A DNA stretch of 64,000 nt from the NCBI RefSeq assembly GCF_009363615.1, contig NZ_CP045385.1:620001-684000 (forward strand). The letters run 5' to 3'. Positions 17,381-34,766 of the stretch are shown here, one piece after another. Numbering within the stretch: the first letter of the stretch is position 1; every line of letters begins with the position of its first letter. A program made the position numbers and the translations under genes. Source of the DNA: Ruegeria sp. THAF33 (GTDB lineage Bacteria; Pseudomonadota; Alphaproteobacteria; Rhodobacterales; Rhodobacteraceae). The notes under the pieces are model-generated. The model worked only from the letters and a program-made list of their open reading frames with translations. It was not told where the DNA came from and did no database searches.

Positions 17381-17398
17381 AATCTGTCCTTTCAAGGT

Positions 17399-18262
17399 TC
17401 AGCTGGTCGCTGACTTCAACTCGCTCAATATCTCGGCCAGTCCGGCTTTCCAGTCGGGTCTCTGGATTCCGAACACATTTTCCAGCCGCGAACAGTCCAT
17501 ACGTGAGTTCAGCGGCCTGGGTGCCGGCGTTGGGTAAGCCTCAGTTGGAATATCCTCGATTTCGACCGACAAGCCGGATTGAGAAACAACTTCACGGGCG
17601 AAATCCGCCCAGCTGGCATCAGGTGCACCGGAATAGTGAAACACCCCCCCTTTGGCTTCGAGGCCAGCCTTGGCCATTTTCAGCAAGGTTTCGGCGATGT
17701 CTGCAGCAGGTGTTGGCCCGCCGATCTGATCTGCGACGATGGTCAGCTTGTCACGGGTTTCTGCCAGTCGGCGAATGGTCTTTGCAAAGTTCTTTCCGTG
17801 GGCCGAAAACACCCAGCTTGTGCGCAAAATGGCATAGTGACCGCCAGCCTCTGCGATCTGGTGTTCGCCGTCCAGCTTTGTTCGACCATAGGCCCCCAAG
17901 GGCCCGGTGGGGTCATCGGTGTTCCAGAGGGTCGTACCAGAGCCGTCAAAAACGTAATCCGTGGAAATATGCAGAAAAGGCAGGTCGCGGGCCGCGGCGG
18001 CGCGCGCCATTGCACCGGGTGAATCTCCGTTGATCCGTTGCGCCAGGTCGCTTTCCTCTTCGGCCTGGTCCACCGCCGTATAGGCGGCCGCATTGATGAT
18101 CACGTCCGCATCCGTATGCCGGATGGCGTCTGCACATTGCGACGGGTCAGACAGGTCCGCCGCGGCGCGATCCAGAGCTTCAACCAGGACACCATGCGCC
18201 TGTCCGCGACGTCGCAACTCGGTCGCCACCTGCCCCCCGTGGCCGAACACCAGCGCCTTCAT
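17399..18262 (-). CDS. rmlD: dTDP-4-dehydrorhamnose reductase
   Basis: NAD(P)H-dependent short-chain reductase that completes dTDP-L-rhamnose. 287 residues. The N-terminal [11 protein letters not shown] replaces the usual G-x-x-G-x-x-G nucleotide loop in the RmlD way; [31 protein letters not shown] and the catalytic YGRTK are all present, with LRTSWVFS following. The ATG overlaps the rmlB stop by ATGA (18259-18262), so it is coupled to rmlB. Confidence 0.95.
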
Positions 18263-19299
18263 TTGGCAACACCCAGCCGCTCACCCACGCCACTGCGGGC
18301 CCGCAAGGCGTTCAACCATGCGCTGTTGTCCAGATACCACTGAACCGTCTGTTCCAGCCCGGTTTCAGGCGTGTAGGAAGGACGCCAGTTCAGTTCGGTG
18401 CGAATCCGGGTCGGATCGATGGCATAACGCTGATCGTGACCGGGGCGGTCAGCGACGAACGTGATCAAATCCGCATAGGGCGTTTCACCCGGCTTGAGGC
18501 GATCCAGGATCGAACACAGCATTCTGACAAGATCAAGATTGGTCATCTCATTCTCGCCACCGATATTGTAGCTGCGGCCCAGTTCACCCTTTTCGAGCAC
18601 CAGCAACAGGGCTTCGGCATGGTCATCGACATGCAGCCAGTCGCGAATGTTGTCGCCTTTCCCGTAAATCGGGATCGGTTTGCCCGCCAGCGCGCTGAGG
18701 ATGACAACGGGGATCAGCTTTTCCGGAAACTGGTAAGGGCCGTAGTTGTTGGAGCAATTGGTAAGAACCACTGGCAGGCCGTATGTTTCACGCCACGCCC
18801 GCACGAGATGATCCGATCCCGCTTTCGAGGCCGAATAGGGTGAGTTCGGCTGGTATGGGCTGTCTTCGGTGAAAAACCCGGTTTCTCCCAAGGACCCAAA
18901 GACCTCGTCGGTTGATATGTGATGAAACCGGAAATGCTCGGGCCGGCCGGCACCCAGCCAATAGGCGCGTGCTGCTTCCAGCAATACATAGGTCCCGGTC
19001 AGGTTCGTGTCGATGAACGCGGCCGGGCCATCGATCGAGCGGTCAACATGGCTTTCAGCGGCCAGATGCATGATCGCGTCTGGCTGGTGCCTGTCCAGTA
19101 TCGCCGACATGGCGGCGGCATCCCGGATATCCGCATGTTCAAAAACGTATCCCGGCGCATCCGCGACAGAGGCAACATTGTCCAGACAGGCCGCGTAGGT
19201 CAGGGCATCGACATTGACGACCGAATGCCCATCGGCAATCGCGCGACGGATAACGGCAGAGCCGATAAAGCCCGCCCCGCCCGTAACCAGAATTTTCAT
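18259..19299 (-). CDS. rmlB: dTDP-glucose 4,6-dehydratase
   Basis: NAD-dependent extended short-chain dehydrogenase, 346 residues, converting dTDP-glucose to dTDP-4-keto-6-deoxyglucose. The Rossmann motif GGAGFIGS starts at about residue 7; [27 protein letters not shown] and the catalytic YSASKAGSD are present, with [14 protein letters not shown] downstream. Overlaps rmlC upstream and rmlD downstream by 4-base ATGA junctions, so the operon is tightly coupled. Confidence 0.96.
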
Positions 19300-19865
19300 T
19301 GTGTGTCCTCGAATACGAAAGGAGATTCAATTTCGCGCAGAAGTGGTGCGATCCGATCTTTCTCGGACAGCTGGGGTTCTGAATTGCTCTGTGGCCATTC
19401 AATGCCGATATCGGGATCGTCCCAACGAACCGCGCCTTCGGTTTCCGGCGCGTAGGTATCAGAACACTTGTAGACGATCTCGGTCTCCGGCTCCAACGTC
19501 ACGAACCCATGCGCGAACCCCGCAGGAACCAACAGCATCCGCCCGTTTTCGAAACTCAGTTCTTCACCGACCCAGTGACCATAGGTGGGCGAGCCTTTGC
19601 GGATATCGACCGCGACATCAAACAGCCGCCCACGACCGCAGCGTACTAGCTTGGCCTGCGCCCTTGGCGGAGCCTGAAAATGCAATCCGCGTACCGTGTT
19701 CACCGTGCTCGAAAGGGAATGATTGTCCTGAACGAATTGCGTATGAATCCCTTGTGCCGCAAAACTGTCGGCATTGTAGGTTTCCTCAAAGAACCCGCGA
19801 TGATCGCCGAAACGCTTCGGCGTGATCAGTTTCACTTCCGGAATGGAAAGCGCCAATATTTCCAT
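19296..19865 (-). CDS. rmlC: dTDP-4-dehydrorhamnose 3,5-epimerase
   Basis: Cupin-fold epimerase of 189 residues, third enzyme of dTDP-L-rhamnose synthesis. Conserved segments: [41 protein letters not shown] (catalytic His) and [46 protein letters not shown]. First gene of rmlC-B-D-A. The region just upstream (AAAATTAGTAACA before the ATG) has no good Shine-Dalgarno, so initiation may be weak. Confidence 0.95.
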
Positions 19866-20242: not shown

Positions 20243-22291
20243 TCAGGCCGCTTCGAGATTTCCCAACAGGATGGAGGTCATGTCCACGTTGATGACCCCA
20301 TCCACCGCCACGACGTCGACACCTGTCTGATAGGTTACATTGTCTCTGGTAATCCCTGAAAGGTCCGCGTTCTCATCCAGAAATACCCATTCAGGGTCAT
20401 GGGCCGTGGACTGCCCAACGGCGACTTGCAAAATTGCAAGCGCATCCAGGGCGTTCACAGTGCCATCCCTGTTGACGTCTGCGGCTATCAGGTTTTCCGC
20501 GGTCGCGGGACCCCATGTCGGATCAAGACCAACCGAGATGCGCAACACTTGCAAAGCGTCCAGCGCGTCAATCTTTCCGCTTGCCGTGGAATAGTGTTTG
20601 GTGATGTCCAGCACTCCGGGAAAGGTGCCATCGGGCAATTCCAGATCAAACCGCCCCTGATCATCTGCGGTGGCGGATACCGTGCCCCCGCCGTCCGGCG
20701 TGAACCGGATTTCCGCATCCGTCAGCCCCGGATTCGCAGCCTCGCTGTCCACCGTAATCTGCCCGACCAATCCATCGGAGCTGCCCGGTGTCTGCCCGCC
20801 CAGGTCCCCGAAATCTACCGGGATGTGATCCGGTCCGGTGAAGCCTGCGCCAAAGATATCCGTGCTTGTCAAAGCGCCGCCCGAGGCGGATTGGACCTGC
20901 ACGACCTCGCCACGATATTCGATCCGAGCCCCGTTTGCCGTGCTGGTAAAGGTCAGTTGCTGAGGCGACCGCAACAGCAGGTAGTCGAACATATCCAGAC
21001 GATCCACGCCCGCCTGAAAATCGGTTATTGTGGTCAGACCACTACCGGACTGCATCACGAAAATGTCGGCCCCTGCACCACCCGACATCGTCGTCGCACC
21101 CTTCCCCGCGATGAGAATGTCGTCTCCGGCGCCTCCCAGAAGGGTCGTGTCCAGAATACCGCCGCTGAGGATATCGTCCGACGCGCTTCCGTTCACGGTA
21201 CCGAATCCCTTGCGCACAACACCCAGATCATCGACCGGGACCGTCAGGACGTTCACCCCGGCATCCTGTTGTGATGTCACGAGAATTTGCAGCTCGTCGC
21301 CTACATGTGCAACCGCCAGCGATTCGACATTCTGCAATCCACTGGCCAGCGTATCCGCGAAACTGTCCATATGAACAAGTTGACCTTCCGGTGTCAGAGT
21401 GAACAGAGACAGGCCATCATCGCCGCCGCCTGCAACCACAAAGACCCGGCCGTTCACATCTATGACCGCCAGATCCTGAACCGATTCAAACCGCGTGTGA
21501 AGCGTATCAAGCACATGGTCCGTCGCCTTCAAACTTCCATCGCTGTTCAATTGAAGAACACTGAGAGAGTTGCTGCCGGACCCCGCCACCACGACCCAGG
21601 ATTTACCGTATGCCTCTACGGTCTGGACATCCGTTGGAGTAGAAACACCTAGGGTTCCGAGCGCCGAATCATTGTTGATCTCGGTTAACGTGCCGGTGCC
21701 GGAATCGATGCGATATGTCGAAACAGCGTTCGTTGCCGCGTCACTTGAGATCAGAAAAGTTTCCGAACCCGACCGCAACGTCTGCATGGCATCCGCCGTG
21801 CCGGCAATCAAACCCGCAAGACTGAGCGTCCCGTTCGCGTTCACATGGTAGGTTCCGATATTGCCGGTATCCTCATGCGCCATCGCAAGGACATCCGAAG
21901 AGCCAAGTGAAAACTGTACGATGGCCGAGATATCTCCGCCTCCGTTGAGCACACCCGTTTCCTTCAGGTTACCGATCGTTCCGTCCGCGTTCACGTCATA
22001 CCCGACCAGGCCCGTGGCAGTATTGATGTCGAGCGCGATCTGCTCGGTTCCCCCCAGCGTTATCGGCGTGGCACTGCGCCCCACCTGAAAGGTGATCGAA
22101 CCGCTGTAATACTCGGTATCAACCAGCTGCGGCAGGGCACCGTCGACCAGCCGCCAGACCGCGACGCCGCCACCCGGGCCGGTCACCGTGTAGAGATACG
22201 TATTCCCGTTAAGCGTTTTTAAAGCCGTATCGCCGATACCTGAATCGAGCGCCGTGCTCCCCGTTGCCACTACACTTTCGAACTGAAGCAT
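20243..22291 (-). CDS. Secreted beta-propeller/RTX protein with C-terminal dockerin module
   Basis: Predicted surface or secreted protein, 682 residues from the ATG at 22289-22291 (GGAGGTGA upstream; a GTG further up is less likely). Residues about 15-350 consist of repeated blades resembling a beta-propeller. Residues about 360-410 are RTX calcium-binding repeats (LLGGAGDDILIAG, MSGGAGADIFVMQSG) followed by ITDFQAGVDRLDMFDY, typical of type I secretion substrates. A carboxypeptidase-regulatory-like beta-sandwich follows, then about residues 569-629 form a type I dockerin: a first degenerate repeat (GKIDALDALQVLRISVG) and a second with a complete calcium loop DVNRDGTVNALD. There is no Sec signal peptide. 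It is divergent from the cohesin-bearing adhesin, its likely partner. Catalytic activity is not apparent. Confidence 0.82.
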   Translation of the reverse strand: MLQFESVVATGSTALDSGIGDTALKTLNGNTYLYTVTGPGGGVAVWRLVDGALPQLVDTEYYSGSITFQVGRSATPITLGGTEQIALDINTATGLVGYDVNADGTIGNLKETGVLNGGGDISAIVQFSLGSSDVLAMAHEDTGNIGTYHVNANGTLSLAGLIAGTADAMQTLRSGSETFLISSDAATNAVSTYRIDSGTGTLTEINNDSALGTLGVSTPTDVQTVEAYGKSWVVVAGSGSNSLSVLQLNSDGSLKATDHVLDTLHTRFESVQDLAVIDVNGRVFVVAGGGDDGLSLFTLTPEGQLVHMDSFADTLASGLQNVESLAVAHVGDELQILVTSQQDAGVNVLTVPVDDLGVVRKGFGTVNGSASDDILSGGILDTTLLGGAGDDILIAGKGATTMSGGAGADIFVMQSGSGLTTITDFQAGVDRLDMFDYLLLRSPQQLTFTSTANGARIEYRGEVVQVQSASGGALTSTDIFGAGFTGPDHIPVDFGDLGGQTPGSSDGLVGQITVDSEAANPGLTDAEIRFTPDGGGTVSATADDQGRFDLELPDGTFPGVLDITKHYSTASGKIDALDALQVLRISVGLDPTWGPATAENLIAADVNRDGTVNALDALAILQVAVGQSTAHDPEWVFLDENADLSGITRDNVTYQTGVDVVAVDGVINVDMTSILLGNLEAA

Positions 22292-22353
22292 CACAGCCAT
22301 CACCTCCCGCGCCACCCCTGGCAGTTACGGCAAGATGACCAGATGAGCAGACC

Positions 22354-22396
22354 GAAACCGAAGCAGAATTGTGGTGAAAACGAGAAGTTCGGTTTC
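22354..22396. promoter_or_regulatory. Inverted repeat in the dockerin/cohesin divergent promoter
   Basis: Perfect 9-bp arms GAAACCGAA (22354-22362) and TTCGGTTTC (22388-22396), 25 bases apart, in the 160-base region between the dockerin gene and the adhesin gene. The left arm is part of a direct repeat ACCGAA-ACCGAA. It could be a shared operator that coordinates the two genes; no regulator is identified. Confidence 0.45.
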
Positions 22397-22451
22397 AGTT
22401 TAACTCAATTTTTTCAGGTCCGATCGCTACGGCAACAAATGGGAAAGACAG

Positions 22452-25400
22452 ATGAGCAAAACGCCAAACAGCACATCCTTTCCTGTTGCGATGATCGCGG
22501 ACACCACATGCGAGGGCAAGATGACCAAAGCACCTGAGGCCAACAATCGTCCGGCGGCTGACTCGACGGACGGAGATCGCAAATCTCAAGTTCAACAATG
22601 GATCAATGGTAAACTTGGTCGTTGGGCGGGTCGAGGCGCGGCTGGCAGCCTCATGTCCACGTTGATGGCCTTGCCTGCCTTGTCACAAGCAACCATCGAA
22701 GAGCTTTACGCCTTCCAGTTCGCAGAGACAATTCCGGGTGTACGCTCCGCCAAGTTGCTGAAAAACGGCGATGTTCTTCTGAAAATGGCGGACGGTCGGA
22801 CGATGATCGTGGCGGCGGAAAACGTGCAGGTTCTGGACAGCGGCGCAATCATGATCGCGGAAGCGGCGGTTGCTGAAATCGCCCAGTTCAGCGCAGCTGA
22901 AGCCGGTGCAGCAGCTGGCGGAATCAGCGGCGCCGGGGCTGCATTGGGCGGCCTCGGGCTGGCCGGCGCAGCTGCCGCTGCGGGCGGAGGCGGTGGCGGC
23001 GGCGGCGATTCCCCGGAACCTGTCGCGCCAGCGCCTAAACCCCAACCCCAACCGGAACCGAGCTATACCAGCCTGAACCTGGCCGAACTTCAGGCAACGG
23101 CATTGAACAGTGCCATTACCAATGCCGCCGCACCCGAAGGAACATCGATAGTCGAGGTCACGATAGGTTCGCTGGTCAAAACCGTAACACCCAACGATGA
23201 CGGCAGTTGGAGCATTTCTCTCACTGCGGCCGAAGCAAATGCGCTTCCGCAAGGCGTCTCTACGGTGACAGTCAGACATCTGGACGATTCAGGCACGGAA
23301 CTGTCCAGCGAATCCGTCAAGTTCGATATTGATACAATTCCTCCAACCCTGTCGATCACCGGGTTTTCCGATGGCGCTGTTTTGAATTCGATCGAACAGG
23401 CAACGGATCTGACGGTCACCGGAACAACCGATGCAGAAGACGGGCAGACCGTTACCGTCTCAATGAACGGGCAAAACTATTCGGGAACGGTATCCAATGG
23501 ACAATGGAGCGTCACCGTTCCGGCGGCAGACCTCTCAGCCCTTCCTGATGGCGCGACGATTGCCGTTACGGCGGATGTTGCCGACGCGGCGGGAAATTCA
23601 GCACCACAGGCGAGCGGGAGCTTCGATACTGATTTCACTGCACCAACTGTTTATCTGGATCCCGTGGCTGGCGGCTCGATAGAACTGATCGACGTAGCCG
23701 GCGACCTGGCCTTGACCGGTTCCACCACGGCAGAGGATGGTCAGACCATCATCGTCACGTTCAACGGACAAGTGCATACAGGCACCGCTTCTGGCGGAAG
23801 CTGGAGTGTAACGATCCCCAATTCCGATCTGAGCAGTCTTTCCACCGGAGTACCTGCATCTGTTCTGGTAGCCGTCGAGGACGTGTCGGGCAATCCGGCA
23901 GTGCCGCTTCTAGTATCGGTTCCCGTAGACCTGACCGGTCCTTCCATTTCGATAACACCGCTTCCTGTTGGTTCCGTACTGAACGCAACCGAAGCCGGAT
24001 CCGACTTGACCATCAGCGGGCTGACGTCAAATGTTGAGGATGGCCAGCAAGTTACCGTAACCCTCGATGGTCAAACATATTCCGGAACAGTATCCGGCGG
24101 GGCTTGGAACGTGACTGTGCCAGCTGGGGATCTGGCGTCCTTGTCGGATGGAGGCAACTTCTCTGTTACCGCAGATGTCGACGACGCCAGTGGCGTGACG
24201 GCACCGCAGGCCGCAGTGACACTTTCCAAGGATGTGACCGCGCCGACGCTCAGCATCGACAGTTTCTCGGACGGAGCTGTCATGAATGCAGCCGAGCGGG
24301 CCACGGATCTTTCCATCTCGGGCAGTACGACAGCTGAAGACGGACAAATCGTAACCGTCAGTCTGAACGGGCAGTCCCATAGCGCAACGGTTTCTGGCGG
24401 CAATTGGAGCGTAACTGTACCTGCTACGGATCTGACAGGTCTATCTGACGCGTCGACGGTCACCGTAACTGCGGATGTCTCGGACGCTGCCGGGAATCCG
24501 GCTCTGCAAGCGAACAACAGCTTTACCACCGATTTCACGCCACCGACGATCGGAATTTCAACCGTATCCGACGGGGCCGTCATGAACGCCGTTGAACAAG
24601 GAACCGACCTGACGGTGTCAGGAACTTCCGATGCGCCGGACGGAACAGTTGTTACCGTCGAAATCACGCGCGCTGACGGCACTACGGACGTCACCGGAAC
24701 GGCAACGGTAACCGGGGGCACTTGGACCTATACGGCAACCGTGACAGATTTGTCTGCCCTGCAAGACAACGAGACTTACAATATCAATGCGTCGATCTCG
24801 GACGCGGCGGGAAACAACAATCAAACCACGACAAGCTTTGCCACTGACTTCACAGCACCTTCGATAACCATAAACAGTCTGCCTGTGGGTGCCGTGTTGG
24901 ACGTGACCGAGAGGGGCGTGGATCTTGCAATCTCAGGCACGACCACGGCTGAAGATGGCCAGACCGTTTCGGTCACATTCGGCGGGCAAACCTATACAGG
25001 CGTTGCATCAAATGGTTCGTGGGCAGTTACCGTTCCAGCAAGTGATCTTGGAATGCTCTCTGACGGAACGAGCTATACCATTTCCGCCACTGTTGACGAT
25101 CTGGCCGGAAACAGCTCGGCCGCGGCGAACAGCTCACTTTCCACAGATTTTCGCCCCCTGTTGACGTTGAACGATGTCGGGGTCAACAATTCGATTGGTC
25201 TTGCCGATGCCAAAGCTTCCGGAATTACTCTCGGCGGGTCATCGACCGGATTGTCAATCGGCCAGTCGGTGGATGTCACGTTAAACGGCAGTTCGGTCGG
25301 ATCTGCAACGGTGGCCGCAGACGGATCCTGGTCGCTGGCTGTCGCGGCGTCCGACTTTTCGGCAGTGGAGGCAGGTGATGACCTTGTCTTTTCCGCGCAG

Positions 25401-26363
25401 GCGACCGTCGCGGGTGGACCAGATCCGCTGCCGGTTTCCGAGCAGGCCGTTGCGCATGAACCCGCCGCCTATGTGATCTCTGAAGTTGGGCGCTCGGGAT
25501 CTACGGTGACATTCGCAATCCATGCCGAAGCCGACCGCGATATCTCTGACGGTCTGGCTTTGACGGCAGAGCTCGGATTTGACCCTTCGGTTGTCACATT
25601 CAACACGGCGTCGGTTTCGGAAAACAACGCCTTCGATTTGTTCTTGGCCAGCCCGGGCGCCGGGGGCGCGATGAATTTTGCTGGCGCGGCGACAACCTTT
25701 ACAGATCTTTCTCAGCCGCTTGTCACTTTCACGATGACGATCCAGGACTCCAGCCAGCCTATTGAGCTGACAATCAAAACGTCTGATGGCGGGCCAACGA
25801 CAGTGCAGTTTGGCACCATTGGCGATGACACGCTCACCGCTGCGAATACGGACACCATCACGCGCGGCGGTGACGGCGACGATACCATTGATGTTTCTGC
25901 GGCAGGGCGAGACATCGTCGTCTTCGAGGCCGACCCGGCCAGCAATGGTACAGACACTGTGACTGGCTTTACGATTGGCCCGGCTGCGGATGTAACCGAC
26001 GCATTGATGTTCCATGGGCTGGACACCAATACGCTTCGCGGTGATGGCACCGGATTCGAATTGCTTTCCACCGGAGACACGTTGGGCACGAACACCGGAT
26101 TTGTCGGCCTCAGCACGGTACTCACCGACCTCAACCTCAGCACAATCGAAGCCGCTGTCGAGAGTCTTGCCGGAGCCATGGCGGGCGATGAGCTTTACGT
26201 GATGGCAACCGACGGAACAGACAGTGTTCTGGTCAAGGTAGATTTCCAGGCGGCGAACGATGCCAGCGTTGAAACCGTGGCCACGTTCCAAGACCTGAGC
26301 GATCTGAGCGGCCTGACCGCAGATAACATCCTGCACACCGACCCGACCGGGGCAACGGCCTGA
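22452..26363 (+). CDS. Large Ig-repeat surface adhesin with cohesin-like module, type I secretion substrate
   Basis: Protein of 1303 residues. Residues 1-180 resemble the N-terminal prefix of BapA/LapA adhesins: a small beta segment (LLKNGDVLLKMADGRTMIVA) then an Ala/Gly-rich stretch with AAAGG-type sites and a Gly run, followed by a Pro/Gln linker. About residues 200-900 hold tandem Ig-like domains, six of about 97-100 residues sharing DLTVTGTT-AEDGQ-VTV and SWSVTVPA-DL patterns. About residues 1005-1115 form a cohesin-like beta-sandwich (LTAELGFDPSVVTFNTASV; FAGAATTFTDLSQPLVTFTMTI). The end has one RTX-like motif (RGGDGDDTIDV) and an acidic C-terminal secretion region. No Sec signal. Followed by sapC and a type I exporter. 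A GGGAAAG site precedes the ATG. Confidence 0.85.
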   Translation: MSKTPNSTSFPVAMIADTTCEGKMTKAPEANNRPAADSTDGDRKSQVQQWINGKLGRWAGRGAAGSLMSTLMALPALSQATIEELYAFQFAETIPGVRSAKLLKNGDVLLKMADGRTMIVAAENVQVLDSGAIMIAEAAVAEIAQFSAAEAGAAAGGISGAGAALGGLGLAGAAAAAGGGGGGGGDSPEPVAPAPKPQPQPEPSYTSLNLAELQATALNSAITNAAAPEGTSIVEVTIGSLVKTVTPNDDGSWSISLTAAEANALPQGVSTVTVRHLDDSGTELSSESVKFDIDTIPPTLSITGFSDGAVLNSIEQATDLTVTGTTDAEDGQTVTVSMNGQNYSGTVSNGQWSVTVPAADLSALPDGATIAVTADVADAAGNSAPQASGSFDTDFTAPTVYLDPVAGGSIELIDVAGDLALTGSTTAEDGQTIIVTFNGQVHTGTASGGSWSVTIPNSDLSSLSTGVPASVLVAVEDVSGNPAVPLLVSVPVDLTGPSISITPLPVGSVLNATEAGSDLTISGLTSNVEDGQQVTVTLDGQTYSGTVSGGAWNVTVPAGDLASLSDGGNFSVTADVDDASGVTAPQAAVTLSKDVTAPTLSIDSFSDGAVMNAAERATDLSISGSTTAEDGQIVTVSLNGQSHSATVSGGNWSVTVPATDLTGLSDASTVTVTADVSDAAGNPALQANNSFTTDFTPPTIGISTVSDGAVMNAVEQGTDLTVSGTSDAPDGTVVTVEITRADGTTDVTGTATVTGGTWTYTATVTDLSALQDNETYNINASISDAAGNNNQTTTSFATDFTAPSITINSLPVGAVLDVTERGVDLAISGTTTAEDGQTVSVTFGGQTYTGVASNGSWAVTVPASDLGMLSDGTSYTISATVDDLAGNSSAAANSSLSTDFRPLLTLNDVGVNNSIGLADAKASGITLGGSSTGLSIGQSVDVTLNGSSVGSATVAADGSWSLAVAASDFSAVEAGDDLVFSAQATVAGGPDPLPVSEQAVAHEPAAYVISEVGRSGSTVTFAIHAEADRDISDGLALTAELGFDPSVVTFNTASVSENNAFDLFLASPGAGGAMNFAGAATTFTDLSQPLVTFTMTIQDSSQPIELTIKTSDGGPTTVQFGTIGDDTLTAANTDTITRGGDGDDTIDVSAAGRDIVVFEADPASNGTDTVTGFTIGPAADVTDALMFHGLDTNTLRGDGTGFELLSTGDTLGTNTGFVGLSTVLTDLNLSTIEAAVESLAGAMAGDELYVMATDGTDSVLVKVDFQAANDASVETVATFQDLSDLSGLTADNILHTDPTGATA
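23341..25150 (+). repeat. Six tandem Ig-like domain repeats of about 300 bases
   Basis: Repeats inside the adhesin gene beginning near 23341, 23650, 23936, 24240, 24540 and 24855. Each encodes a start like TLSI-FSDGAVMNA-E-ATDLTVSGTT and an end like DVSDAAGN-A-SF-TDFTAP. Nucleotide identity is only moderate, so they are old duplications rather than recent expansions. A diverged domain lies on each side. Confidence 0.8.
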
Positions 26364-26410
26364 TCCAGACCGGCGCACATACAGACGTAATTCAACATCA
26401 TGAGGCGGTT

Positions 26411-27244
26411 ATGGCACAGAATGGATTAACTCCGGTCAGTCTTGGACGACATGGTCATCGGTTCTGGAGGCGGTTCACCTCGTTCGATTTCGCACGGACT
26501 ATGGCAGATTGCCCTGTGGTCGAACTAGAAATTCTTCAGGCCGCCGCCACATTTCCAATCACTTTTCGGAAATCTGAACACGGGTTTTATCCAGTGGTTG
26601 TATTGTCCGTGCAACCGGACCAGCCTACGCCATTTGTGTCAGCACATGGCAAATGGCTCGCGACTTATGTGCCATGCGTCTTGCGCTGTGCTCCGTTCCG
26701 GCCACGACTGACTGAACCGGATGGTAACGGCCGTGACGAATTGCTTGTCGACGAAACGGCGGGGCTTATCACTGACAATCCGGAAGACGAGGTATTCTTC
26801 GACAAATCAGGTCAACTTGCGCCGGAACTGAAAAAAGTCGCAGCTTTCTTTCGCGCCCTGAAAGAGTCGATGAAACACACAACGCATCTGTGTCGTGTTC
26901 TTGCTGACATGGGATTGTTTGGTTCACTGACCACTTTTCAGGGAGTTGAGTTTCCGAGCGGGCATTTTGGCGTCACGCAGAACGCCCTGGAGAAAATTCC
27001 CCGCGCGCACTTGTCACTGCTTACTTCGAATGGGGGGTTGCGACTGATTCACGCTCATCAGATTTCGCTGACCCACAGTATCTGGCTGACACACGCACAT
27101 GCCCGCGCGCATCGGGAAGCTGATACTTCTCTGACACAACAGACCACCGGTGTTTCAGGGTTCTTGGACGCGTTGGTTGCGGCGCAACAGAAAGAAGAAG
27201 CCATGGACCATTGCAGGCAGGAGGGTCATCATGCGTTCCTGTAA
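26411..27244 (+). CDS. sapC: SapC family protein
   Basis: Protein of 277 residues matching the SapC family: an N-terminal VSLGRHGHRFWRRFTSFDFARTMADCPVV segment, EFPITFRK-like (ATFPITFRKSEHGFYPVVVLS), then HGKWLATYVPCVLRCAPFRP, and EVFFDKSGQLAPELKKVAAFFRAL. In Campylobacter fetus sapC lies with the sapDEF type I secretion genes for the S-layer protein; its biochemical role is not defined. Here it lies between the adhesin and the tolC-like gene on the same strand, a comparable arrangement. No signal peptide or membrane segment is evident, so cytoplasmic. The C-terminal 14 bases overlap the next gene. Confidence 0.85.
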   Translation: MAQNGLTPVSLGRHGHRFWRRFTSFDFARTMADCPVVELEILQAAATFPITFRKSEHGFYPVVVLSVQPDQPTPFVSAHGKWLATYVPCVLRCAPFRPRLTEPDGNGRDELLVDETAGLITDNPEDEVFFDKSGQLAPELKKVAAFFRALKESMKHTTHLCRVLADMGLFGSLTTFQGVEFPSGHFGVTQNALEKIPRAHLSLLTSNGGLRLIHAHQISLTHSIWLTHAHARAHREADTSLTQQTTGVSGFLDALVAAQQKEEAMDHCRQEGHHAFL

Positions 27245-28574
27245 AGCAGTTTTGTCCTGGGTTGCGTTCGCTCTGCTCGCAATACCGTTGTCCGCCTGCA
27301 CGCCCCCTCCTGATTTGACTCTAGTGGCAGTGTCTTTTGCACCCGGGACCACCGGTGCCGGGGCAGTAAAGCCATCGTTAAAGCTCAGCAGTAGTGCATT
27401 CGGGCAACGCGTGCGCCAGGCGGTAGAGACAAGCCCGACATTGGCGCAAAGCAATACAAGGATGGATATCGCATCAGCCAATCAAGATGCAGCGGAAGGC
27501 GCCTTTCTTCCGCAGATTTCGTTGGGAATAAATGCACGGTCCGAACGGGTCGAATCGGACATTGCAGATGTTTCACCCTATCTGAGAATTTCACAATTGG
27601 TTTATGACGGTGGGGCTGCCTCGGGGGATCTGACGGCAGCCCGGGCACGTGTTCTGGAAACACGGGGCGATCAAATTCAGACGGCATCAGCCACGGCGCT
27701 GGCCGCCATCGAGACCTATGTGCTTGTCATTGATCAAAGAAAGTTACTCCGCATCGCGGCTGACAATGTCTCGGTTCATGAAGAACTGGTGCGTCAGATT
27801 TCGGACCGCACAGCGGGCGGCGCCGGTTCAAATGCAGATGTTCTGACCGCGCAGTCCAGAATGGCAGATGCACGCACAAGACTGGCTGACGCACGATCAC
27901 GAACTGATCGGGCCGAAGCGCGGTTTCGAGAAGTGTTCGGGACTTTTCCCGGCTCATTGCCCCCTCCTGTACCAGCTCCACCGCTGAATAGAAGTGATGC
28001 CCAGATCGTAATGAACAGCCCTCAGATCCGCAGGGCGGATGCCCGCTTGCTGGCAGCCAAAGCCGAATGGTCGGCCGCGCAGGCACGGCGCAAACCGAAC
28101 GTTCGGGTCGCCGCATTTGCCAACCAGGATGACACTCGGGACGCAAATTTTGGCGTGGATCTTTCTTTCAACTACGAGCTTGACAGCACCGGCCAACGCC
28201 GCGCCGCCATCGCAGCAGCAGAAGCCAAAGTGAAAGAAGCGGAGTTCGCGAGAGAGCAATTGGTTCGCGAAATCATGCGGGAGCTGGGCTTTATTCGATC
28301 CGATCAAAAAGCAGGCGCAGAACGGCTGCGCGCGGCCCGTATTGCGGCAGCTGCCAATGCCGACAGTGTTACTGCATCCCGCGCACAGTTCTCGATTGGG
28401 CGTCGCAGCCTGATCGAAATTCTGGACGCTCAACGCGATTACGTAAATGCGCAAGAACGCCTGATTCTGGCCGAACAGAGTTATTTTCTGACCAACTACG
28501 CGGCACTGAGCCTTACCGGAGACATTCTGGACCTGCTCGGACTTTCGCTTGGCAATTGGAACGAGGTGAAATGA
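27231..28574 (+). CDS. TolC-family outer membrane lipoprotein of type I secretion
   Basis: Outer membrane efflux channel subunit, 447 residues from the ATG at 27231, chosen because AGGAGG lies 7 bases upstream and a lipoprotein signal then follows: hydrophobic segment with lipobox LSAC, Cys23. The remainder is long-helical with typical TolC segments (ANQDAAEGAFLPQISLGINA, LRISQLVYDGGAASGDL, ARAQFSIGRRSLIEILDAQRDYVNAQERLILAEQSYFLTNY). It should trimerise and connect to the membrane fusion protein. It overlaps sapC by 14 bases and the exporter ATPase gene by 4 (ATGA), so all are one operon. Confidence 0.9.
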   Translation: MRSCKAVLSWVAFALLAIPLSACTPPPDLTLVAVSFAPGTTGAGAVKPSLKLSSSAFGQRVRQAVETSPTLAQSNTRMDIASANQDAAEGAFLPQISLGINARSERVESDIADVSPYLRISQLVYDGGAASGDLTAARARVLETRGDQIQTASATALAAIETYVLVIDQRKLLRIAADNVSVHEELVRQISDRTAGGAGSNADVLTAQSRMADARTRLADARSRTDRAEARFREVFGTFPGSLPPPVPAPPLNRSDAQIVMNSPQIRRADARLLAAKAEWSAAQARRKPNVRVAAFANQDDTRDANFGVDLSFNYELDSTGQRRAAIAAAEAKVKEAEFAREQLVREIMRELGFIRSDQKAGAERLRAARIAAAANADSVTASRAQFSIGRRSLIEILDAQRDYVNAQERLILAEQSYFLTNYAALSLTGDILDLLGLSLGNWNEVK

Positions 28575-30718
28575 GCACGTTGAAATCAATGCCGGATCGC
28601 GCCCGTTTGACATGCTACGAAGCCTGCATTCTGAATATCGCCGCGACGCTTGAACGCCCTCTGACCCTTGCAACGATCCAGGCGTCGCAGACCGGTTCGG
28701 ACGGGGATCTGACTGTTCGTGACATCCTCTCGGTGGCGGAAAACACAGGTCTACAGGCGGGCTATGGCGCGCGGCGCATCGCGAGTTTTGACGAAGCATT
28801 GGCTCCGGCCTTGTTGCTGATGACCGAAAACAAGGCGGTTGTGTACCATGGCCGCGCAAAAAACGGTGCCTTGCTGGTCTATGACCCGGAACTTGGCGAA
28901 GGAATCGGCGAAGCTTCAGAAGAACAGCTGGCCAAGTCCTACACCGGTTTCGCTGTCTTGTTTCGGCGAAATCATACAGATGAATTGGACACCGGTCACA
29001 CGGCTTACCGAGGTCATTGGTTTCGCGCGGCGCTGTCCGCCAATCGATGGACTTACATACAAGTTGCTCTCGCTGCGGCACTGGCAAACCTTCTTGGCTT
29101 GTCGACCTCAGTTTTTATCATGGTTGTCTATGATCGCGTGTTGCCCAATGAGGCAACCGAATCGCTCATTGCCTTGACGGCGGGCGTGGCCTTGGCGCTG
29201 CTATTTGACTTCGCGCTAAAATTGCTGCGAGCAGCGTTCATCGACAAGGCCGGGCAAAAAGCCGACTTGCTCATGGGGCGGCGAATTTTCGACCACGTTC
29301 TGAATATCCAGATGAAGTCACGCGCGGGTTCCACCGGCGCTATGACCAGTACCATCCGTGAGTTCGAGACCCTGCGTGAGTTCTTCACGTCCGCAACGCT
29401 TGTTGCCGTCGTGGATCTGCCGTTCATCTGGTTGTTCGTGTTTGTGATTTACCTGGTCGGCGGACAACTGGCATTGGTCCCGGCTCTGGCCGTGCCTGTG
29501 GTTCTGCTGACAGGTTTGGCCGTACAGCCGCTTCTGTCCCGCATGGCAGAAAAGAGCCTGTCTGACGGGCAATCCAAACAATCGGTCCTCGTAGAAGCTG
29601 TCTCGGGCCTTGAAACTATAAAGACAACGGCCGCGGGCCGGCAAATGCGTTCCCGATGGGAGCAGGCGATAGAACGGCAATCCTCGCACGGTGCTCAGAG
29701 CCGGGCCGTTACACAATTTGCTCTTAACCTCACCGGTTTTACGCAACAAGCGGCACAGGTGTTGATCGTATTTTATGGTGTTTTTCTGATCACAGACGGT
29801 CAGACCAGCATGGGCGCTTTGGTTGCCTCGGTGATGCTGACAGGGCGGGCACTGGCACCTTTGGGGCAGTTGGCGCAAACGTTGACAAGGCTTAACCAAG
29901 CCCGAAGCGCATACCGAAACCTCAACGCGCTGATGATGGCGGAAAGCGAACGCCCACAAGGCCGAACATGGGTGAACCGGCCCCATTTCAAAGGGGCGAT
30001 CGCCTTCAACAACGTGTATTTTTCCTACCCTGATCAGGGGGAAGATACCCTGCAAGGCGTTTCATTCACGATCAAACCGGGTGAAAAGGTGGCGATCCTG
30101 GGTCAGATTGGCTGCGGGAAAAGCACCATCGCACGTCTTTTGCTTGGATTGTACGCGCCGCGTGTAGGATCTGTCACATTCGAAGGCCTTGATATCCGCC
30201 AGATCGATCCTGGTGATCTGCGACGCAATATCGGATCCGTCCTGCAGGATATATGGCTCTTTTCCGGATCAGTCCGGGACAATATCGCAAGCGGCACAAT
30301 CCGGCCAAAAGATCACGAACTGATCGAAGCAGGCCGCGCCGCCGGGGTTGAGGATTTCGTGGCCAACCATCCCGGGGGTTACGATCTTCAACTCGCGGAA
30401 CGCGGCGAAGGCCTCTCTGGCGGACAGCGGCAAGCCATTGCCCTGGCAAGGGCACTCATAGGCCGTCCGCCGGTTCTCCTGCTGGATGAACCAACAAGCG
30501 CGATGGATGTCAAAACCGAAGCCCAGGTTATCCAACGTCTGAAAGAATGCACGGCAGAGTCCACCATGGTTGTCATTACACACAGAACCAGCCTGTTGGA
30601 GCTTGTTGACAGGGTCATCATCCTTGAACACGGGAAAATCGCGGCGGATGGCCCCAAAAGCATGCTGACGCAACATGTTCGTCGGACAGGGAGGCACCTG
30701 AATGTCGCAGCATCCTGA
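28571..30718 (+). CDS. Type I secretion ABC transporter (LapB/HlyB-like) with C39-like domain
   Basis: Fused exporter of 715 residues. Residues about 1-135 are a C39-peptidase-like domain that lacks the catalytic Cys/His arrangement and so probably binds the substrate rather than cutting it. About residues 150-440 hold six membrane segments; the ATPase follows with Walker A GQIGCGKST (511-519), the ABC signature LSGGQ (615-619), and Walker B VLLLDEPTSAMD, then the H-loop ITHRT. Starts at the ATG that overlaps the tolC-like stop (GAGGTGA upstream). With the following membrane fusion protein and the outer membrane channel it forms a complete type I secretion system for RTX/Bap-type proteins. 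Confidence 0.93.
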   Translation: MSTLKSMPDRARLTCYEACILNIAATLERPLTLATIQASQTGSDGDLTVRDILSVAENTGLQAGYGARRIASFDEALAPALLLMTENKAVVYHGRAKNGALLVYDPELGEGIGEASEEQLAKSYTGFAVLFRRNHTDELDTGHTAYRGHWFRAALSANRWTYIQVALAAALANLLGLSTSVFIMVVYDRVLPNEATESLIALTAGVALALLFDFALKLLRAAFIDKAGQKADLLMGRRIFDHVLNIQMKSRAGSTGAMTSTIREFETLREFFTSATLVAVVDLPFIWLFVFVIYLVGGQLALVPALAVPVVLLTGLAVQPLLSRMAEKSLSDGQSKQSVLVEAVSGLETIKTTAAGRQMRSRWEQAIERQSSHGAQSRAVTQFALNLTGFTQQAAQVLIVFYGVFLITDGQTSMGALVASVMLTGRALAPLGQLAQTLTRLNQARSAYRNLNALMMAESERPQGRTWVNRPHFKGAIAFNNVYFSYPDQGEDTLQGVSFTIKPGEKVAILGQIGCGKSTIARLLLGLYAPRVGSVTFEGLDIRQIDPGDLRRNIGSVLQDIWLFSGSVRDNIASGTIRPKDHELIEAGRAAGVEDFVANHPGGYDLQLAERGEGLSGGQRQAIALARALIGRPPVLLLDEPTSAMDVKTEAQVIQRLKECTAESTMVVITHRTSLLELVDRVIILEHGKIAADGPKSMLTQHVRRTGRHLNVAAS

Positions 30719-32012
30719 TCTGGCCACCCTGGCGCGCGAGATGCAGGGACGCTCTCCTGTTCGGAGTTCCTTGCTGCTTTTGGTGATTCTGCTCTGCCTG
30801 ATCGCCGCGCTATTGTGGGCGCATCTGACCGAACTGGACGATGTCACGCGCGTGGACGGCCGGATCGTGCCTTCCGGAGACATCCAGCTGATCGAAGCCA
30901 CCGAGCCCGGCGTATTGCAGTCGTTGCATGCGCGCGAAGGCCAACTGGTCGAAAAAGGTTCACTGCTGATGGAACTGGAAACAACCCAAATTGACAGTCA
31001 GCTCAGTCAGGAACAGCAACGCGCGTTCGGGCTGATGGCGCGCATCCAACGTCTTCGGTCCGAAATTGATGGGACACAACTGGATTTCGATGTTCAACTG
31101 ATCAACGGCGCGCCTACCGTCGTGCAATCCGAAACTGCACTGTACCAAGGCCGGCAGGCTGAGTTGGAGGCAGAAATAGCCATCCTGGAGCGTCAGCGTC
31201 AGCAAAAACAGCGAGAGTTTGAGGAAGGCCTGGTCGATCAAGTGACGGCAGAAGAAACCCTGGTGGTCCTGGCCGAAGAGAGGGCCATCATGGCGCCGCT
31301 GGTCGAGCGTCAAATGGAGCCTGCAACAACATTGCTTGCGTTGCGGCGGAGTGAAGCCGAATGGCGCGGTCGCAAGGTGCGGGCAGAAGCTGTGACCAAC
31401 AGGTTGCAAACGGGCTTGGACGAAATCGATGATCGGATTCAAGCGGTGCGAAGCCGGTTTCGCAGCGCCGCGCTGACGGATCTGGCGCTTGCTACTGCCG
31501 AGCTGGCTGCCTTGCAACCCGCCCTGCCCGCTTTGCGCGACCGGGCGTCAAGGGCACAGGTTCGGTCTCCGGTACGCGGCATTGTAAACCGGATTCATCG
31601 CTCCACCATCGGCGGTCTCGCCCGCAGTGGAGAGGACCTTGTTGAAATCGTGCCGCTGGACGACACATTGCTGGTTGAAGCCTATGTAAAGCCTGAGGAT
31701 ATCGCGTTTTTGCACGCTGGTCAGCCTGTGAAGGTCAAAATCACGGCTTATGACTTCGCACGATACGGGGCGCTGGATGGTGAAATCATCCGCATCGGTG
31801 CAGACACGGTCACACGATCAGAGCGGAATGACGAAGAGGTCTTTGTGATCGAGATCCGAACCAAAAGCACCATGCTTGATGGGAATGGCGTAGCGGTCGA
31901 AATCATACCTGGAATGATCGCCGAAGTGGACATTCTGTCTGGCCGCAAAACAGTGCTGGACTATATTCTGCAACCGGTTGTGAAGATAAAGGATCAGGCA
32001 TTGCGCGAATGA
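30702..32012 (+). CDS. HlyD-family membrane fusion protein of type I secretion (LapC-like)
   Basis: Periplasmic adaptor of 436 residues, overlapping the exporter gene by 17 bases. One membrane anchor at about residues 22-44 (SLLLLVILLCLIAALLWAHL), a lipoyl-like half domain (DGRIVPSGDIQLIEATEPGVLQSLHAREGQLVEKGSLLMELE), a long coiled coil (about 95-275) and the beta-barrel end with the HlyD signature region GEIIRIGADTVTRSERNDEEVFVIEIRTK and GMIAEVDILSGRKTVLDYILQPV. It bridges the exporter to the TolC-like channel. Last gene of the operon; converges with the response regulator gene, with a small hairpin at 32044-32056. Confidence 0.92.
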   Translation: MSQHPDLATLAREMQGRSPVRSSLLLLVILLCLIAALLWAHLTELDDVTRVDGRIVPSGDIQLIEATEPGVLQSLHAREGQLVEKGSLLMELETTQIDSQLSQEQQRAFGLMARIQRLRSEIDGTQLDFDVQLINGAPTVVQSETALYQGRQAELEAEIAILERQRQQKQREFEEGLVDQVTAEETLVVLAEERAIMAPLVERQMEPATTLLALRRSEAEWRGRKVRAEAVTNRLQTGLDEIDDRIQAVRSRFRSAALTDLALATAELAALQPALPALRDRASRAQVRSPVRGIVNRIHRSTIGGLARSGEDLVEIVPLDDTLLVEAYVKPEDIAFLHAGQPVKVKITAYDFARYGALDGEIIRIGADTVTRSERNDEEVFVIEIRTKSTMLDGNGVAVEIIPGMIAEVDILSGRKTVLDYILQPVVKIKDQALRE

Positions 32013-32154: not shown

Positions 32155-32856
32155 CTACTTCCAACCGACATCACCCAAGAATATATAACCCGCCCCATAG
32201 ATCGTCTTGATCAACCGCGGGTTCTTGGGATCCTCTCCCAGCTTGGTACGCAACCTGGAAATCCGAACATCCATCGCCCTGTCAAAACTGTCTCCGGCTG
32301 CGCCGCCCAGGGACTCCTGCATTTGTCCCCTGCTGATCAGCCGCTTGGGGCTTTCCAGAAACAGCCGCAGGACTTCCCCCTCTGCATGGCTGAACGGCGT
32401 TTCGTCACCTGATTCACTTTCAAGGACGTATCGGTCAAAATGTGCGGTCCAGCCGTTGAATTCCGCCGTGTCCGAATGAGAGGTCTGAGTGCGGGGTGTT
32501 CTTAACCTTGCCCTGATCCGCGCCACGACTTCCGCAGGGTCAAACGGTTTTGTAATATAATCGTCTGCCCCAAGTTCCAGCCCCGTAACACGGTCCTGCA
32601 CCTGCGCGCGCCCCGAAATGATGATCACGGCCGCGCCTTGTTCCAACGCCAGACGATGAACCAACGCCAGCCCATCCGTATCCGGCAATGACAGGTCGAC
32701 CAGACAGACATCGGGCGTCACACGGTTGAGCGCAGCCTCGAATTCTCGCGCGCGGGAAAAACTCTGCGTACGGAAACCGGCATCCTCCAAAGCGTCCGTC
32801 AGGATGCGTCGGATTTCGGGTTCGTCGTCGAGGATGGTAACCAGCGGTTGCGTCAT
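32155..32856 (-). CDS. OmpR-family response regulator
   Basis: Two-domain transcription factor of 233 residues. Receiver domain at about 1-120 with the acidic pocket LDDEPE, phospho-acceptor Asp54 (VCLVDLSLPD) and the conserved Lys in ITKPFDP. The C-terminal winged-helix domain of the OmpR/PhoB type ends with DVRISRLRTKLGEDPKNPRLIKTIYGAGYIF. Its ATG overlaps the preceding kinase stop by one base. Converges with the type I secretion operon, so it may or may not control it; the target is unknown. Confidence 0.93.
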   Translation of the reverse strand: MTQPLVTILDDEPEIRRILTDALEDAGFRTQSFSRAREFEAALNRVTPDVCLVDLSLPDTDGLALVHRLALEQGAAVIIISGRAQVQDRVTGLELGADDYITKPFDPAEVVARIRARLRTPRTQTSHSDTAEFNGWTAHFDRYVLESESGDETPFSHAEGEVLRLFLESPKRLISRGQMQESLGGAAGDSFDRAMDVRISRLRTKLGEDPKNPRLIKTIYGAGYIFLGDVGWK

Positions 32857-34766
32857 CAGGCGGCCTCGGTTTGGATCAGGGCTGACAATTGAGCCTGCGA
32901 AAACGGTTTACGCAACACCGGGGCCAACGCAAGGGCGCGCTGGTACAACGGGTCCGAACTGGGCAGCGATGTCATAAGGATACATGGCAATCCCGGCTTC
33001 ACCTGCCGCAAAATATCCAGACCTGTACCACTTCCTTCGAGACGGATATCGGACAGGACAAGAGAAATGTCTTCAACGCTGTCTATCAACGCCAGCGCCT
33101 CATCTACCGAATTGGCCTCGATGACGGCGAAGCCCAGCTCTACCAGCATATCCCGAAACTGCCCCCGCAAATCTTCGCTGTCTTCGACCAGAAGCACCAA
33201 ACCGCCTTGCACGGGCGGAGCTGGCCGATAGGGCAACCGCAAAACGACGGATGCGCCCGATGGCGTGTTCTTGAGGTTCAGATCGCCCCCGGCTAGCTTG
33301 ACAGTGTCATACACCATGGGCAGTCCAAGCCCCGACCCGTCGCTTCCCTTGGTGGTAAAGAACGGGTTCAGCGCCTTTTCCAGCGCCTCAGGTGTAAAGC
33401 CCGGGCCGGTGTCCGATACAGTGATTTCAACCCAGATTTCTCCGATGGTATGCGCGCTGATTGTAATCTGGCCCGAACTGCCGCAGGCATCCCGCGCATT
33501 CAGCACCAGGTTCAGCAACGCATCCTGCACCATTCCCGGGTCCAGCATCAAAGCCCGGTCGGGCAAAGTGTTGACCACCGACAAACCGACGCCGCGCGGC
33601 AAGGAAGGCGAGGCCAATATTCTCAGGTCTTCCAGCAGCGCCTTCATGTCCGTGGCCTGAGGATGTGGCGTTCGGTTCCCGGTCATGTCCGCAATCCGGT
33701 TCAGCAATTGCCCACCCCGACGCGCCGTTTGCTGTGTCGCGGCAACCAGCTCATGTGCTTCATCCGACAGGTCCATTTTGTTCAGTTTGGACTGCATCCC
33801 AAGGATGATCGTCAGCAAGTTGGAGAAGTCATGAGCCAATCCACTGGTCATCTGGGCGGCCATAGCTCGGCGGCGCGTTTGCTGCAAAACGACGCGCGCC
33901 TGCGTTTCTTCGGTGATATCAACCGACATTACATAGACGCCACCGGCGTCATCCGGCGTGAATGAAACGCGGATGCGGCGGGAATCCTGATCCTCGTTGA
34001 ACTCGAATACGGAGGTTTCTCCGTCATAGGCTTTTGCCAGATGCGTTTTGACCCGCCGATACGCGGCGGCACCAAGCGCTTCGGATATGTGAAGCCCAAG
34101 AATCTCCGACGGACGTCCGGGCAGGACCGCGCTCAAACGGCGGTTGGAGTAGTCATATCGACCAGTGCGATCCAAATGCGCGATATGAGCCGGCATCATT
34201 TCGGTCATCATGCGTGTGCGGGCTTCGATTTCGGTCAGCTCGCGTTTGGCCTCTTCCAATGCCTTGATCGTGGCCGCAAGCTTTCGGTTGGTTGCAGACA
34301 GTTCTTCGGCGTGGCCGAGCAATTGTTCCGACAATTCTTCTGATCGCGCCCGCAGCAGGTTTTCTGCACGCCGGGTGCCGGTAATGTCAGTGTAGACCGC
34401 AACCCATCCGCCCTGTGGCAACGGCGCGCCTTCTATCGAGATAACCTGCCCGTTGGGCCTTACGCGCTCCATGTAATGAGGCTCGAAAGCCAAAGCCTGC
34501 TCGACACGCAGGTTCACCATTTCTTCCACACTTTCTTCGTCACCGTATTCGCCACGGCTGGCGAGAAAATGGATGGTATCCCGAAACAAAGCTCCGCGTT
34601 CGACCAGCTCGTCCGGCAGGTCGAACATTTCCTTGAACCGACGATTGCTCAGCACCAGTTTCAGGTTGCTGTCATAGATCGAAAGCGCCTGACCGATGAG
34701 ATTCAGTCCGGCGGTCGTCATCGCCTTTATGCGCTGTTCGGTGATGTCCAGGTTCGTCTTCTCCAC
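32856..34766 (-). CDS. PAS-domain hybrid sensor histidine kinase
   Basis: Cytoplasmic hybrid kinase, 636 residues, with no membrane segment visible. Order: PAS-like domain (about 20-130), a coiled region (about 135-185), second PAS domain (about 188-290), HisKA dimerisation with phospho-His312 (GLAHDFSNLLTIILG), HATPase with N-box NLVLNARDAC, DTGPGFTPEAL and GSGLGLPMVYD, and a C-terminal receiver with Asp573 (LVLSDIRLEG). The listed start is a GTG with a weak ribosome site; an ATG 15 codons downstream is an alternative. The C-terminal receiver plus separate OmpR regulator suggests a branched phosphorelay. The signal is unknown. Confidence 0.9.
   Translation of the reverse strand: MEKTNLDITEQRIKAMTTAGLNLIGQALSIYDSNLKLVLSNRRFKEMFDLPDELVERGALFRDTIHFLASRGEYGDEESVEEMVNLRVEQALAFEPHYMERVRPNGQVISIEGAPLPQGGWVAVYTDITGTRRAENLLRARSEELSEQLLGHAEELSATNRKLAATIKALEEAKRELTEIEARTRMMTEMMPAHIAHLDRTGRYDYSNRRLSAVLPGRPSEILGLHISEALGAAAYRRVKTHLAKAYDGETSVFEFNEDQDSRRIRVSFTPDDAGGVYVMSVDITEETQARVVLQQTRRRAMAAQMTSGLAHDFSNLLTIILGMQSKLNKMDLSDEAHELVAATQQTARRGGQLLNRIADMTGNRTPHPQATDMKALLEDLRILASPSLPRGVGLSVVNTLPDRALMLDPGMVQDALLNLVLNARDACGSSGQITISAHTIGEIWVEITVSDTGPGFTPEALEKALNPFFTTKGSDGSGLGLPMVYDTVKLAGGDLNLKNTPSGASVVLRLPYRPAPPVQGGLVLLVEDSEDLRGQFRDMLVELGFAVIEANSVDEALALIDSVEDISLVLSDIRLEGSGTGLDILRQVKPGLPCILMTSLPSSDPLYQRALALAPVLRKPFSQAQLSALIQTEAA

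Follow-up and report, generated by a model that had tools for sequence, protein, structure and literature searches.

We analysed a stretch of 64,000 nucleotides (the window) of the 4.63 Mb genome of Ruegeria sp. THAF33, in which the gene of a large adhesin is divergent from that of a dockerin-bearing RTX/propeller protein (DOC) and is followed by the genes of a type I secretion system. The two proteins probably belong to a non-cellulosomal cohesin–dockerin display system of the type I secretion pathway, in which a single-socket adhesin scaffold holds dockerin-bearing heads. This reading is built on the domain assignments in both proteins, their joint retention within the genus, their co-occurrence in other genera, and the co-variation of the dockerin with a cohesin-like domain of the adhesin. 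Genomes are labelled G (G000 is that of the window) and fetched loci L.

Domain assignments in DOC and the adhesin

The initial annotation had placed a dockerin with a complete second calcium loop at the C-terminal end of DOC, and both features were confirmed. The Dockerin_1 profile (PF00404) matches residues 579-628 with E 5.3e-9 and 36.6 bits, over the curated cut-off of 22.9. Loop 2, DVNRDGTVNALD, is complete, and loop 1, YSTASGKIDALD, has no Asp/Asn at position 1, 3 or 5. Excerpts of PMC6780208 give 1, 3, 5, 9 and 12 as the calcium positions of dockerins and, together with excerpts of PMC5748583, 10, 11, 17, 18 and 22 as the recognition positions. The predicted structure of the DOC C-terminus was poor (predicted local distance difference test score, pLDDT, 51.6) and was set aside. 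Translation of DOC probably starts at the ATG of codon 9 (window 22291), or possibly at codon 6, because in six relatives one of the first three codons is a stop, with none elsewhere. A weak dockerin-like match (17.7 bits, under the cut-off) was also seen in a 259-residue frame of the same genome (G000:C3:129961-130086, L002).

The two dockerin repeats resemble each other at several of the recognition positions. Of 63 dockerins 35 were compared, after the exclusion of 27 copies from Ruegeria and a fragment (fragment L115 was never in the set). Among the 35, both repeats share the residue at position 10 in 30 cases (18.6 in a shuffle null), at position 11 in 17 (4.7) and at position 18 in 29 (20.8), with p-values that are not strict probabilities because the sequences are related. 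Identity is also in excess at positions 15, 20, 21 and 23; position 17 is invariant, and no excess was found at position 22 or at positions 2, 4, 7 and 8. Symmetry of this kind would be expected if a dockerin can engage its partner either way round (dual binding mode). Ala at position 10 of both loops follows the presence of the cohesin-like domain, with the exception of G427, one loop of the G049 paralogue and one loop of a G415 dockerin, an association that is weak or post hoc.

The adhesin has eight Ca2+-stabilised repeat stretches (NF033510), and the domain that follows them was modelled by AlphaFold2 (residues ~1000-1122) with a cohesin fold at pLDDT 88.9. The top Foldseek match of this model is the cohesin-like structure 2jh2, and VIA ranks 1-7 are all cohesins, with other adhesin folds close behind. 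A diversified cohesin-like profile (A5), which includes sequences from G000, G173, G415 and G138, finds the cohesin 4uyp_A as its best solved-structure match (E 0.0015), the next match being unrelated (E 0.065). Weaker evidence comes from the hhalign comparison with the Pfam-positive cohesin L201, which gave E 0.0018 but a probability of 15 over 25 columns. The Pfam cohesin profile PF00963 has no match at E<=10 in the adhesin, its C-terminal 313 residues or its relatives (0/16 members of A5), nor in any of nine dockerin- or domain-positive genomes. A profile made from Ruegeria sequences only (A2) likewise found no PDB sequence at E<=10, which says little, because L201 itself finds no PDB cohesin by phmmer (E<=0.01). 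A tblastn search of plasmids with L201 gave no match. Taken together, these data point to a divergent cohesin fold outside PF00963, so that the cohesin-like domain of the initial annotation stands on predicted fold and diversified profile and fails on the Pfam family. A CLIPPER/isopeptide domain was rejected, as the domain alignment has no conserved lysine.

The N-terminal prefix of the adhesin is presumably a retention module, a role known from LapA/BapA-type adhesins. Two copies of the LapG-type peptidase (PF06035) are found elsewhere in G000 and none in G138, G173 or G415, which leaves LapG-dependent retention unsupported as a general rule.

Features of the adhesin/DOC locus, with positions in the window
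Feature	Positions	Strand	Basis
DOC, dockerin-bearing RTX/propeller protein	20243..22291	-	From the probable ATG, codon 9 of the 20243-22315 open reading frame
Conserved tail after the dockerin (...MTSILLGNLE)	20246..20407	-	Alignments; presumed part of the type I export signal
Type I dockerin of DOC	20432..20581	-	PF00404 E 5.3e-9; loop 1 degenerate, loop 2 canonical
Ig-like (CarboxypepD_reg-like) module directly before the dockerin	20591..20773	-	Weak PF13620 match on a sub-region, E 0.021, under cut-off
RTX/serralysin-C-like stretch of DOC	20975..21196	-	Residues 374-447; partial NF035945/NF033943 matches and PDB matches
Beta-propeller (lactonase-like) part of DOC	21221..22291	-	PF10282 match at residues 149-318; outer limits inferred
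Adhesin (scaffold)	22452..26363	+	N-terminal prefix, Gly-rich linker, Ig-like Ca2+ repeats, cohesin-like domain, RTX-type tail
N-terminal prefix of the adhesin, presumed retention module	22659..22886	+	By eye like the prefixes of sister-cassette adhesins L188 and L193
Tandem Ig-like Ca2+-stabilised repeats (Ca_tandemer/Big_13)	23307..25421	+	NF033510, PF19077, PDB match to the MpAFP tetra-tandemer; outer limits approximate
Cohesin-like domain, residues 1000-1122	25449..25817	+	AlphaFold2 pLDDT 88.9; cohesin matches in structure and profile searches
C-terminal RTX-type tail of the adhesin	25854..26360	+	Sequence; related tails in sister adhesins L193 and L185
SapC-family protein	26411..27244	+	PF07277 E 1.5e-36
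TolC-type outer-membrane factor (OEP)	27231..28574	+	PF02321 over cut-off; TIGR01844 below cut-off; probable ATG inside the 27150 open reading frame, start inferred from sequence
LssB-type type I secretion ABC permease/ATPase	28571..30718	+	TIGR03375 831.6 bits, cut-off 693.1; putative start
HlyD-type periplasmic adaptor	30702..32012	+	TIGR01843 345.8 bits, cut-off 208.65

Co-retention and co-variation in Ruegeria

A complete adhesin C-terminus is present in 40 of 54 genus genomes, and 39 of these have a full-length DOC; in the 40th (G046) DOC is split between frames. Among the 14 genomes that lack a complete adhesin C-terminus, one (G045) has an intact DOC, which lies beside an adhesin fragment with the transport genes absent. 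Ten of these 14 loci were fetched (L094-L103). DOC remnants in nine of them start between residues 219 and 547, and in seven of them parts of HlyD, LssB or TolC persist, with differing breakpoints, while G052 keeps an adhesin fragment and G012 neither. The remnants point to what may have been several losses of the cassette in the genus.

Three Ruegeria genomes (L111-L113) also carry a DOC paralogue (43-44%) with a dockerin beside an RTX protein of 797-834 residues, and no adhesin or transport-gene match was found in the stretch fetched around it. Diverged cohesin-like domains occur in genomes with a second full-length DOC paralogue (G011, G024, G032; p 0.006, or 0.02 when G049 is added), a weak or post hoc association that is further weakened by G047, G005, G048, G022 and G035, which belong to the same diverged group and have no such paralogue.

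We then compared pairwise distances between modules across 39 Ruegeria genomes, a set that omits G046, whose DOC lies in two frames. Of all tested segments, the dockerin gave the highest raw correlation with the cohesin-like domain (r 0.56), and once the contributions of the propeller and of the adhesin tail were removed, the partial r was 0.52 (p 0.0005, the lowest value that 2000 permutations allow). With the other parts of DOC the partial r of the domain was -0.14 (Ig-like module), -0.03 (propeller, given the adhesin tail), 0.25 (RTX part, p 0.015) and 0.34 (post-dockerin tail, p 0.0005), and the adhesin tail reached 0.09 with the dockerin. When DOC was scanned in 21 segments of 60 residues, only 579-638 (0.55) and 609-668 (0.50) exceeded 0.17.

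The reverse scan covered 80 segments of the adhesin, SapC, TolC, LssB and HlyD (the last four numbered from the stop-to-stop frame) in 29 genomes, namely the window and 28 of 31 loci from a named collection of relatives, mostly Ruegeria (27 titled Ruegeria, one Tropicibacter, one Rhodobacteraceae bacterium KLH11 and two alphaproteobacterial metagenome-assembled genomes); L070, L084 and L086 were omitted for a contig end or a missing TolC match. The highest partial correlations of the dockerin were with adhesin residues 1041-1100 (0.43), 1001-1060 (0.36) and 961-1020 (0.32), which span the cohesin-like domain and its N-terminal boundary, followed by TolC 241-300 (0.32) and adhesin 1081-1140 (0.30). 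In raw correlation TolC 241-300 (0.52) was on a par with adhesin 961-1020 (0.51).

Within the dockerin the signal lies mostly in the helix of the second repeat (positions 18, 19, 21 and 22), and position 16 of the first repeat gives 0.43; some of the signal columns, including this last one, vary in only one or two genomes. The co-variation ranges from 0.44 to 0.58 when single genomes are left out, and falls to 0.43 and 0.29 when the 3 and 8 most divergent cohesin-like domains are omitted. A shared recombination tract is an unlikely cause, because some 5 kb of DNA that includes the propeller and the Ig-like repeats separates the two modules. Socket and plug appear to evolve together across the genus.

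Other genera and the surrounding locus

In a family sample of 345 genomes from 344 genera, the A2 profile detected the cohesin-like domain in three genomes (G000, G173 and G415), all dockerin-positive. The dockerin-plus-tail profile (A3) matched 11 genomes, and the four in which A5 found the domain are all among them. G173 and G415 keep the divergent DOC/adhesin/SapC/TolC/LssB/HlyD layout; in G415 the gene just past HlyD encodes a second dockerin protein, which has a von Willebrand D domain, and a third, with an M10-type match, is encoded on another contig. G138 has an adhesin-SapC-TolC-LssB-HlyD cassette with no adjoining DOC and 14 dockerin-plus-tail proteins on eight contigs other than that of the adhesin, six of them in tandem (L148 4365-18229). 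A full-length DOC relative (29%) was also found in G336, with an 811-residue adhesin relative on the same contig (L159 10095-12530, minus strand). Its stretch between the last repeat and the RTX tail resembles a cohesin by eye only and was not counted as a cohesin-like domain, with 1.8 bits from A5, an hhalign probability of 0.1, no Pfam match at E<=10 and no phmmer match in the PDB.

The cargo of 17 dockerin proteins of relatives, among them 9 of the 14 from G138, includes von Willebrand D (VWD), M23, M10, RCC1, cadherin-like and RTX parts (Pfam, E<=0.001). PF00404 is over the cut-off in 8 of the 17, just under it in 1 and unreported at E<=0.001 in 8, which are assigned by the A3 profile only. 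As controls, we fetched 14 loci from the 44 family genomes that are SapC-positive and domain-negative. Four (G213, G156, G395 and G240) have SapC, TolC, LssB and HlyD, and in three of them an adhesin lies within the fetched stretch (G395, G240, and G213, where it is cut at the start, beyond HlyD and on the other strand). By eye, these three adhesins carry other repeats before the RTX tail, not the cohesin-like domain. Across the 14 control loci no cohesin-like or dockerin match was better than E 0.36, and none of the 14 genomes was dockerin-positive.

In the window, the genes lie where the initial annotation had put them, and the complete type I secretion system that it described is borne out by ABC (TIGR03375) and HlyD (TIGR01843) matches over the cut-offs and by PF02321 for the outer-membrane factor. 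DOC (minus strand) is divergent from the adhesin (plus strand), which is followed by the SapC, TolC-type, LssB-type ABC and HlyD genes, so that the ABC, adaptor and outer-membrane genes of this LssB-type system are clustered, in an order kept in relatives. The SapC-family gene, which the initial annotation did not mention, is placed between the adhesin and TolC in 31/31 named loci (some matches are partial) and occurs also in sister cassettes that lack the cohesin-like domain. No TolC match was found between SapC and LssB in L084 (Ruegeria conchae TW15) and L086 (Ruegeria sp. HKCCA6707); the latter belongs to G046, where DOC is also split between frames.

Directly behind DOC lie the dTDP-rhamnose genes rmlA, D, B and C (Pfam; window 16514-19865), and homologues of rmlC, B and D are also found next to the G138 cassette, past HlyD (L163), and at the G030 remnant locus. 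After the cassette (window 32155-34766) are a response regulator and a PAS histidine kinase/receiver, which are retained in all 10 fetched genomes with a cut or lost cassette. The AT skew is strong (0.240) at window 46001-48000 compared with the remainder of the window.

Proposed mechanism, alternatives and known systems

Binding of the dockerin to the cohesin-like domain would be the simplest account of these patterns. As the architecture suggests, the adhesin would be exported through the adjacent LssB/HlyD/TolC machine and held to the cell by its N-terminal part. Its one cohesin-like socket, near the C-terminus, would then sit at the end expected to point outward, near the tip. DOC would likewise leave by the type I route and, in the calcium of seawater, its dockerin would plug into the socket, making DOC the head of the adhesin, with a possible role in attachment. 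Because relatives carry the same kind of dockerin-plus-tail on von Willebrand D, M10, M23, RCC1 and cadherin-like cargos, the adhesin appears to be a scaffold whose single socket takes interchangeable heads. In a more specific version, to which we give an even chance, it would be an RTX adhesin with an interchangeable tip, for which separately secreted dockerin proteins (propellers, von Willebrand D, peptidases and RCC1; up to 14 per genome) compete, changing what the adhesin holds with no change in the adhesin itself, and socket and plug would co-evolve within one genus.

Several results weigh against the display system. The domain does not score as a Pfam cohesin, physical linkage could yield the same picture of co-retention, and, against strict pairing, 7/11 dockerin-positive family genomes have no detected domain. 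This absence is in part accounted for in G045, where the adhesin is cut, in G333, where the contig ends just past TolC and any adhesin lies off that contig, and in G336, where the adhesin relative has the unrecognised stretch at the corresponding place; for G142, G324, G381 and G427 only profile or assembly limits can be offered as an explanation. Linkage is at the core of one explanation that we consider unlikely, in which the domain is the last Ig-type stalk domain or a ligand-binding domain (CnaA-, CLIPPER- or collagen-binder-like), the dockerin is a calcium-folding aid to type I export, and the two are co-inherited by adjacency. A stalk domain would hardly place cohesins at the head of both structure and sequence matches; a CLIPPER-type isopeptide bond would need the conserved lysine, and the domain was not found in the three sister adhesins of dockerin-negative genomes. 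Adjacency also fails to explain why the propeller, the Ig-like module and the adhesin repeats co-vary less with the dockerin than the domain does, and it fails for G138, whose dockerin genes are on contigs other than the adhesin's.

It is improbable, in our view, that the pair acts between cells, with released dockerin proteins binding sockets on kin or on the producer as a cross-linker of matrix or aggregates. No membrane anchor was recognised in DOC by eye, and excerpts of PMC10553843 propose that cohesin and dockerin proteins act in consortia of anaerobic methanotrophic (ANME) archaea and sulfate reducers, both of which would suit such a role, but molecules with a single socket or a single plug could cross-link cells only with the help of a further adhesive site. 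Slighter still is the chance that the dockerin of DOC binds a different, unrecognised partner and shares only the secretion machine with the adhesin. The domain-negative genomes other than G045 would fit this explanation, whereas in Ruegeria the best partial co-variation of the dockerin within the cassette is with the cohesin-like domain, and every domain-positive family genome (4/4) carries a dockerin.

The display system remains our preferred reading, and it bears out in part the initial annotation, which had proposed a small cellulosome-like pair without obvious cellulase modules. The export by one ABC/HlyD/TolC machine and the assembly on the cell surface that it also proposed would fit the type I architecture of both proteins. 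Fold, profile, co-retention, co-occurrence in other genera and domain-specific co-variation favour a cohesin–dockerin pair in non-cellulolytic display, and PF00963 does not. No glycoside hydrolase family was found in DOC or in the 17 dockerin proteins of relatives (Pfam, E<=0.001). The word small fits the window and not G138, with its 14 dockerin proteins.

Cohesin–dockerin pairs are best known from cellulose degraders. As in the clostridial cellulosome (type I), type I dockerins occur here on secreted proteins and a cohesin fold on a large scaffold-like protein, and the dockerin repeats are alike at positions 10, 11 and 18. A cellulosome proper was rejected, as there is one cohesin-like domain, no carbohydrate-binding module (CBM) in the Pfam scan of the adhesin and no glycoside hydrolase among the dockerin proteins scanned. 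The present system also differs in its Gram-negative host, its presumed type I secretion, one socket per adhesin, adhesin repeats in place of a CBM scaffold, a cohesin outside PF00963 and a degenerate loop 1. According to excerpts of PMC5748583, Ala/Leu at recognition positions 10/11, as found here, is also the pattern of mesophilic clostridia.

Non-cellulosomal systems have already been proposed elsewhere. The Planctosome, a hypothetical model for freshwater Planctomycetes, shares a non-cellulosomal cohesin/dockerin architecture, an anchoring protein and peptidase cargos, but relies on N-terminal signal peptides, an adaptor and an anchor of the lamin-tail type (excerpts of PMC6461901), where we propose docking in one step on an RTX adhesin with a type I cassette. 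For ANME archaea and syntrophic sulfate reducers, a role in adhesion has been proposed for cohesin and dockerin proteins that are not tied to cellulose degradation; the lineages are different, and the excerpts of PMC10553843 describe no RTX scaffold of the type I pathway. RTX adhesins with Ca2+-stabilised repeats (MpAFP type, NF033510) share the tandem Ca2+ repeats, which match the MpAFP tetra-tandemer 4p99, the RTX-type tail and the type I cassette, but the adhesin studied here has a distal cohesin-like socket, and its binding heads would come in trans on dockerin proteins. The lack of a conserved lysine also sets the domain apart from the CLIPPER/CnaA-like isopeptide domains of fibrillar adhesins described in excerpts of PMC12617251. 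Among the matches listed from open-licence papers, we found no such pair in Ruegeria or Roseobacter relatives and no RTX adhesins with cohesins. What would be new here is the combination of a type I adhesin bearing a divergent cohesin and dockerin heads that are provided in trans.

Pfam-recognised cohesins occur in 1/349 sampled Pseudomonadota genomes, a rarity that means that a divergent class tied to type I secretion would escape standard annotation. If the pair binds, it would represent a modular surface display system for marine bacteria and a natural way to dock proteins on Gram-negative cells, and it would offer a testable answer to the role of isolated dockerins in RTX proteins.

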